Shown here: piece by piece, positions 18,600 to 19,259 of the stretch
Position numbering within the stretch: position 1 is the stretch's first letter
Layout: each line of letters begins with the position of its first letter
Assembly (NCBI GenBank): GCA_949751835.1
Contig: CATKHK010000104.1
Location: forward strand, 1-64,000
Origin: Blepharisma japonicum
Lineage: Eukaryota > Ciliophora > Heterotrichea > Heterotrichida > Blepharismidae
Length of the DNA stretch: 64,000 nucleotides
Reading direction: 5' to 3'
Program-made: the position numbers and the translations under genes
Notes under the pieces: model-generated
What the model saw: only the letters and a program-made list of their open reading frames with translations
Databases searched by the model: none
What the model was told of the DNA's origin: nothing

Positions 18600-19259
<660 letters not shown>

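Follow-up and report, generated by a model that had tools for sequence, protein, structure and literature searches.

The window, by which we mean the whole 64,000-nucleotide stretch of the Blepharisma japonicum contig CATKHK010000104.1 that was analyzed, contains an intronless gene for a Rab6-like small GTPase on the forward strand (18618..19259); Rab6 acts as a switch in Golgi traffic. The reading frame runs from an ATG at 18618 to a terminal TAA at 19257-19259 and comprises 212 sense codons and one premature TAA at 18915-18917, which lies in the same frame, 339 nt from the terminal stop. Open stretches of 99 and 113 codons precede and follow this TAA, with homology throughout. In a gapless alignment to Rab6 homologs, the TAA takes the place of residue 100 (FDVTNK-x-TFDN). 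A gene encoding a TBC-domain RabGAP (15820-18486, forward strand; Pfam RabGAP-TBC, E 4e-44) ends 131 bp upstream on the same strand; the proximity of a Rab gene and a RabGAP gene may be a coincidence. Two unusually long, AT-rich and gene-poor stretches (19260-20050 and 21560-22600) flank the area, and the rest of the window is gene-dense.

When the TAA is read through, the protein matches the Pfam Ras family with 186 bits. Each half also matches this family separately (E 7e-31 before the TAA and 4e-17 after it), so the two-sided open frame is not a product of chance. A phmmer search with the read-through protein retrieved human Rab6A with E 6e-73. The eleven top PDB sequences are all Rab6 or Ypt6 proteins (E 6e-73 to 2e-67), and the next family in the ranking is a plant Rab5-type (1.5e-45). 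The gene thus has a Ras-family domain and Rab6 proteins as its nearest solved relatives, but its frame does not run uninterrupted through G4, G5 and the C-terminal cysteines because the TAA comes earlier. Like human RAB6A, Plasmodium Rab6 (1d5c) and yeast Ypt6 (9ayr), to which it is 64-67% identical, the protein possesses all G motifs, Rab6-type switch regions and a CxC end; it differs from the Rab6/Ypt6 references by the TAA at residue 100 and by its P-loop, GDIYVGKTS. An AlphaFold model computed without an alignment was unusable (mean pLDDT 39.6). The sequence-only reading had reported an in-frame TAA within an otherwise intact Rab6, a description that the Pfam matches of the two halves and the gapless alignment bear out.

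We compared the site with a reference set of human, fly, Plasmodium and yeast Rab6, the Plasmodium and yeast sequences having been checked residue by residue against solved chains. The counterparts of residue 100 are Asn in human and fly, Gln in Plasmodium and Lys in yeast, with no gap around the site. The earlier reading had expected Gln or Asn here, which agrees with three of the references, Lys in yeast being an addition. With Asn, Asn, Gln and Lys in the four references, this position is variable and tolerant. A single substitution separates TAA from several sense codons, among them CAA (Gln), AAA and GAA.

This proximity to sense codons bears on a first alternative, namely that the gene normally has a sense codon there. 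The TAA would then stem from a one-base mistake in sequencing or assembly, or else be a variant that segregates, or is in the minority, in the polyploid macronucleus. CAA, one of the codons a single substitution off, would give the residue found in Plasmodium. Moreover, a lone change in an intact gene is the expected appearance of an error or of a null allele that segregates, and heterozygosity is substantial in Blepharisma stoltei strain HT-IV (4.67e-3; PMC9942806). On the other hand, the assembly of B. stoltei ATCC 30299 was built from HiFi reads of a strain that is virtually homozygous (3.08e-5; PMC9942806), and if the window came from there a per-base substitution error would be unlikely. 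We regard an error or variant allele as the chief competitor of the account that we favor, though as clearly less probable.

Could the TAA be removed before translation? The predicted introns of the window are 15 nt long and some of them do hold TAA or TAG, which is the one point in favor of an unusual intron, or of a retained eliminated sequence, covering the codon. A search for GT-AG and GC-AG spans of 12-60 nt (including 15 and 16 nt) over the TAA found none that leaves the frame open, in accordance with the earlier statement that no GT...AG intron of 15-16 nt spans it. Four AT-AC spans keep the frame open, but each deletes conserved residues. GT-AG, GC-AG and AT-AC introns were dropped as candidates, either for want of an open frame or for the loss of conserved residues. 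The alignment holds no extra residue, so a retained eliminated sequence is out as well. We give this explanation practically no weight.

In order to read the TAA against the genetic code of the window, we used a Viterbi gene finder with a codon model, in which introns of 15 or 16 nt were allowed and sense TAA or TAG codons were accepted at a penalty; about 16,000 codons of the window were covered. Under the strict penalty, the only sense stop accepted in the window was the Rab6 TAA, and the call for Rab6 spans this codon even when the penalty is strong. The lax penalty let three further sense stops appear. Two of these fall inside predicted 15-nt introns (36445-36459 and 39704-39718), and the third (27149) is antisense to a well-supported EMP70 gene. 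Predicted introns aside, the roughly 16,000 codons thus hold one TAA and no TAG as unexplained in-frame stops. Because this survey was based on codon composition and left frameshifts out, weak or odd genes were missed. For instance, it missed a Cys/His-rich open reading frame on the forward strand (20054-20524) with a repeated HYAKxxCxxCY-like motif and no Pfam match.

Of the 39 gene models, which probably include a few spurious ones, 35 end in TAA and 4 in TAG. The base that follows these terminal stops is most frequently A (16 of the 39), as it is after the internal TAA of Rab6. TAG is a terminal stop and never sense in the models at 11887-12654 (reverse strand), 34702-36615 (forward) and 55653-58784 (forward). 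This use conflicts with NCBI table 15 for Blepharisma, in which TAG encodes Gln. TGA occurs in frame 57 times among the 14,595 training codons, which come from long genes, and sits at conserved Trp sites, such as HHCT-W-VNNCIG of a DHHC palmitoyltransferase. A hybrid histidine kinase with HisKA, HATPase_c and response-regulator domains (40854-42980, reverse strand) also uses TGA as Trp.

The window therefore uses a Blepharisma-type code, in which TGA is Trp, TAA and TAG are stops, and TAA is the normal stop. It shares with the Blepharisma nuclear code TGA as Trp, 15-nt introns and a share of about 90% TAA among terminal stops, and the Rab6 TAA is the sole exception. Published traits of Blepharisma include UGA as Trp, introns of 15 or 16 nt and 66% AT (PMC9942806), and UAA makes up 91% of its stops (PMC4967479), a share that the terminal stops of the window match. 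In assays cited in PMC4967479, the eRF1 of B. japonicum is described as recognizing all three stops. The claim that the other genes use TAA and TAG solely as stops or within introns holds for the window, as surveyed with the gene finder.

The first idea of the sequence-only reading was that TAA might now and then, or in certain contexts, be read as sense, with Condylostoma as the model; it named a null allele, RNA editing and a sequence error as alternatives. In Condylostoma magnum all three stops are also sense, and the reassigned codons are translated efficiently and spread across coding sequences (PMC4967479). The common point with Rab6 is an in-frame stop far from the 3' end; the difference is that Condylostoma has such codons throughout its coding sequences, whereas the window has one. 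TAA and TAG were not found as Gln throughout coding sequences here. The training genes contain 605 CAA or CAG codons, as compared with one TAA and no TAG in the survey, and some 90% of the genes terminate in TAA. The window thus gives no support to a dual code like that of Condylostoma. A general reassignment of TAA was rejected by the window-wide survey: with a single unexplained case among about 16,000 codons, TAA cannot be in common use as a Gln codon, although special handling of a single mRNA is still compatible with this count.

Such handling could take the form of full or partial readthrough of the UAA on the Rab6 mRNA, giving full-length Rab6, possibly with the help of downstream RNA structure and the distance from the 3' end. 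The frame and the functional motifs are indeed intact past the TAA. We measured RNA folding directly 3' of the TAA (18918..19017, forward strand) because this stretch adjoins the codon. It forms a stable fold, with z-scores of -2.7 to -3.3 relative to shuffled sequences. For the 100 nt past this codon the folding energy is -17.5 kcal/mol (z -2.74); 2.1% of 243 random coding windows reach this z-score, and the minimum fold z-score within the Rab6 gene is located at the TAA. This fold is the sole positive hint for recoding and a weak one: it is a post hoc result of one test on a single gene of a single species and lies in coding sequence, whose bases are constrained.

The position of the codon may also favor readthrough, since termination in Condylostoma has been proposed to occur only near 3' ends (PMC4967479) and the Rab6 TAA lies far upstream of the terminal stop. 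Against it, no other sense TAA or TAG was found in the codons surveyed, and ordinary readthrough usually reaches an efficiency of just a few percent (PMC4967479). Taken together, these observations make readthrough an unlikely explanation. To our knowledge, the ACA that follows the TAA matches no readthrough motif. An extreme version, in which local mRNA structure would have the Rab6 UAA decoded efficiently while UAA otherwise remains the main stop, would be an intermediate toward a Condylostoma-type code. We consider such single-gene recoding improbable. Editing of the Rab6 mRNA, so that the UAA codon reads as sense, has a single point in its favor, namely that a one-base change would restore the frame. 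However, the common enzymatic C-to-U reaction runs opposite to a change from UAA to CAA, and ciliates are not known to edit their nuclear mRNAs in this way. We consider editing very improbable.

If the TAA acts as a stop, termination would leave a Rab6 stub of 99 residues. Residues 1-99 retain the P-loop, switch I and switch II. By reading of the translation, the G4 motif NKID (residues 127-130; 18996..19007), the G5 motif SAK (residues 157-159; 19086..19094) and the C-terminal Cys-Glu-Cys (residues 211-213; 19248..19256), a prenylation motif of the CxC type, are all located 3' of the TAA on the forward strand, and the NKxD of G4 is conserved in the alignment. The guanine-binding motifs NKxD and SAK would be missing from the stub, as would the prenylated CxC tail and the C-terminal half of the GTPase fold. 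A GTPase stub deprived of these elements is expected neither to fold nor to bind guanine specifically, nor to attach to membranes, so the Rab6 product should be inactive.

Besides the TAA, there are no further stops or frameshifts in the Rab6 gene. Of the 118 columns in which human, fly and yeast agree, 24 have a different residue in the window protein; Plasmodium Rab6, compared with the same three references over a near-equivalent set of columns, differs at 14 of 116. This is a mild excess, which lineage depth could explain. Most of the substitutions are conservative, and the exceptions include the P-loop (18678..18704, forward strand), where GDIYVGKTS has Ile and Tyr in place of the Gln and Ser, Ala or Gly of GEQ[S/A/G]VGKTS, the form in all four references. 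The description of this Rab6 as nearly perfect therefore fails on its 5' side. A bulky Tyr at this P-loop position is unusual for the family, and residues 23-24 (IY) may reflect relaxed constraint, weak evidence drawn from a comparison with four references, a number too small to establish damage. Since the motifs on both sides of the TAA and the CxC end are intact and the frame is unshifted, any inactivation would be young. The overall pattern fits a long-selected gene whose function was lost recently or is still kept.

The most economical account, and the one that we favor by a modest degree of belief, is that the TAA genuinely ends translation prematurely, in a copy of Rab6 that was disabled recently and is probably redundant. 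What is observed is the TAA within the frame, the intact state of the rest of the frame, the local code and the position of the motifs downstream of the TAA. Termination at this codon of the Rab6 mRNA, the recency and fixation of the change and the existence of a further Rab6 copy are inferred. A recent nonsense substitution would have disabled the gene in a genome where TAA is an ordinary stop and TGA is Trp. The agreement between the TAA share of terminal stops and that published for Blepharisma supports this account, as do the single TAA and absent TAG of the survey, the recognition of all three stops by B. japonicum eRF1 in the cited assays, and the A after the internal TAA, the base found most often after the terminal stops. 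The gene also resembles a young pseudogene or nonsense-mutated paralog, which likewise has one stop in an otherwise intact frame.

The organism would probably tolerate the loss, since one or more further Rab6 paralogs are presumed to exist. Counting against the disabled copy, no second Rab6 copy was found within the window, the substitutions are mostly conservative, and Rab6 is near-indispensable across eukaryotes, yet it is non-essential in yeast (PMC3425129). Tetrahymena possesses Rab6A, B, C and D, and a role in dosage was suggested for its retrograde-Golgi paralogs by the authors of that study (PMC2954822), which makes redundancy of Rab6 plausible in ciliates. Searches of IMG/VR and GTDB with single-protein, two-row alignment and DNA-pattern queries returned no Rab6 relatives; these are viral and prokaryotic collections and are uninformative on ciliates.

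If the TAA is plain nonsense, it has little consequence beyond marking a dispensable copy of Rab6, and the gene should be annotated as a likely pseudogene rather than joined across the TAA. If it is truly read through, it would represent site-specific decoding of UAA in a heterotrich without general reassignment, which would bear on the origin of the ambiguous ciliate codes.
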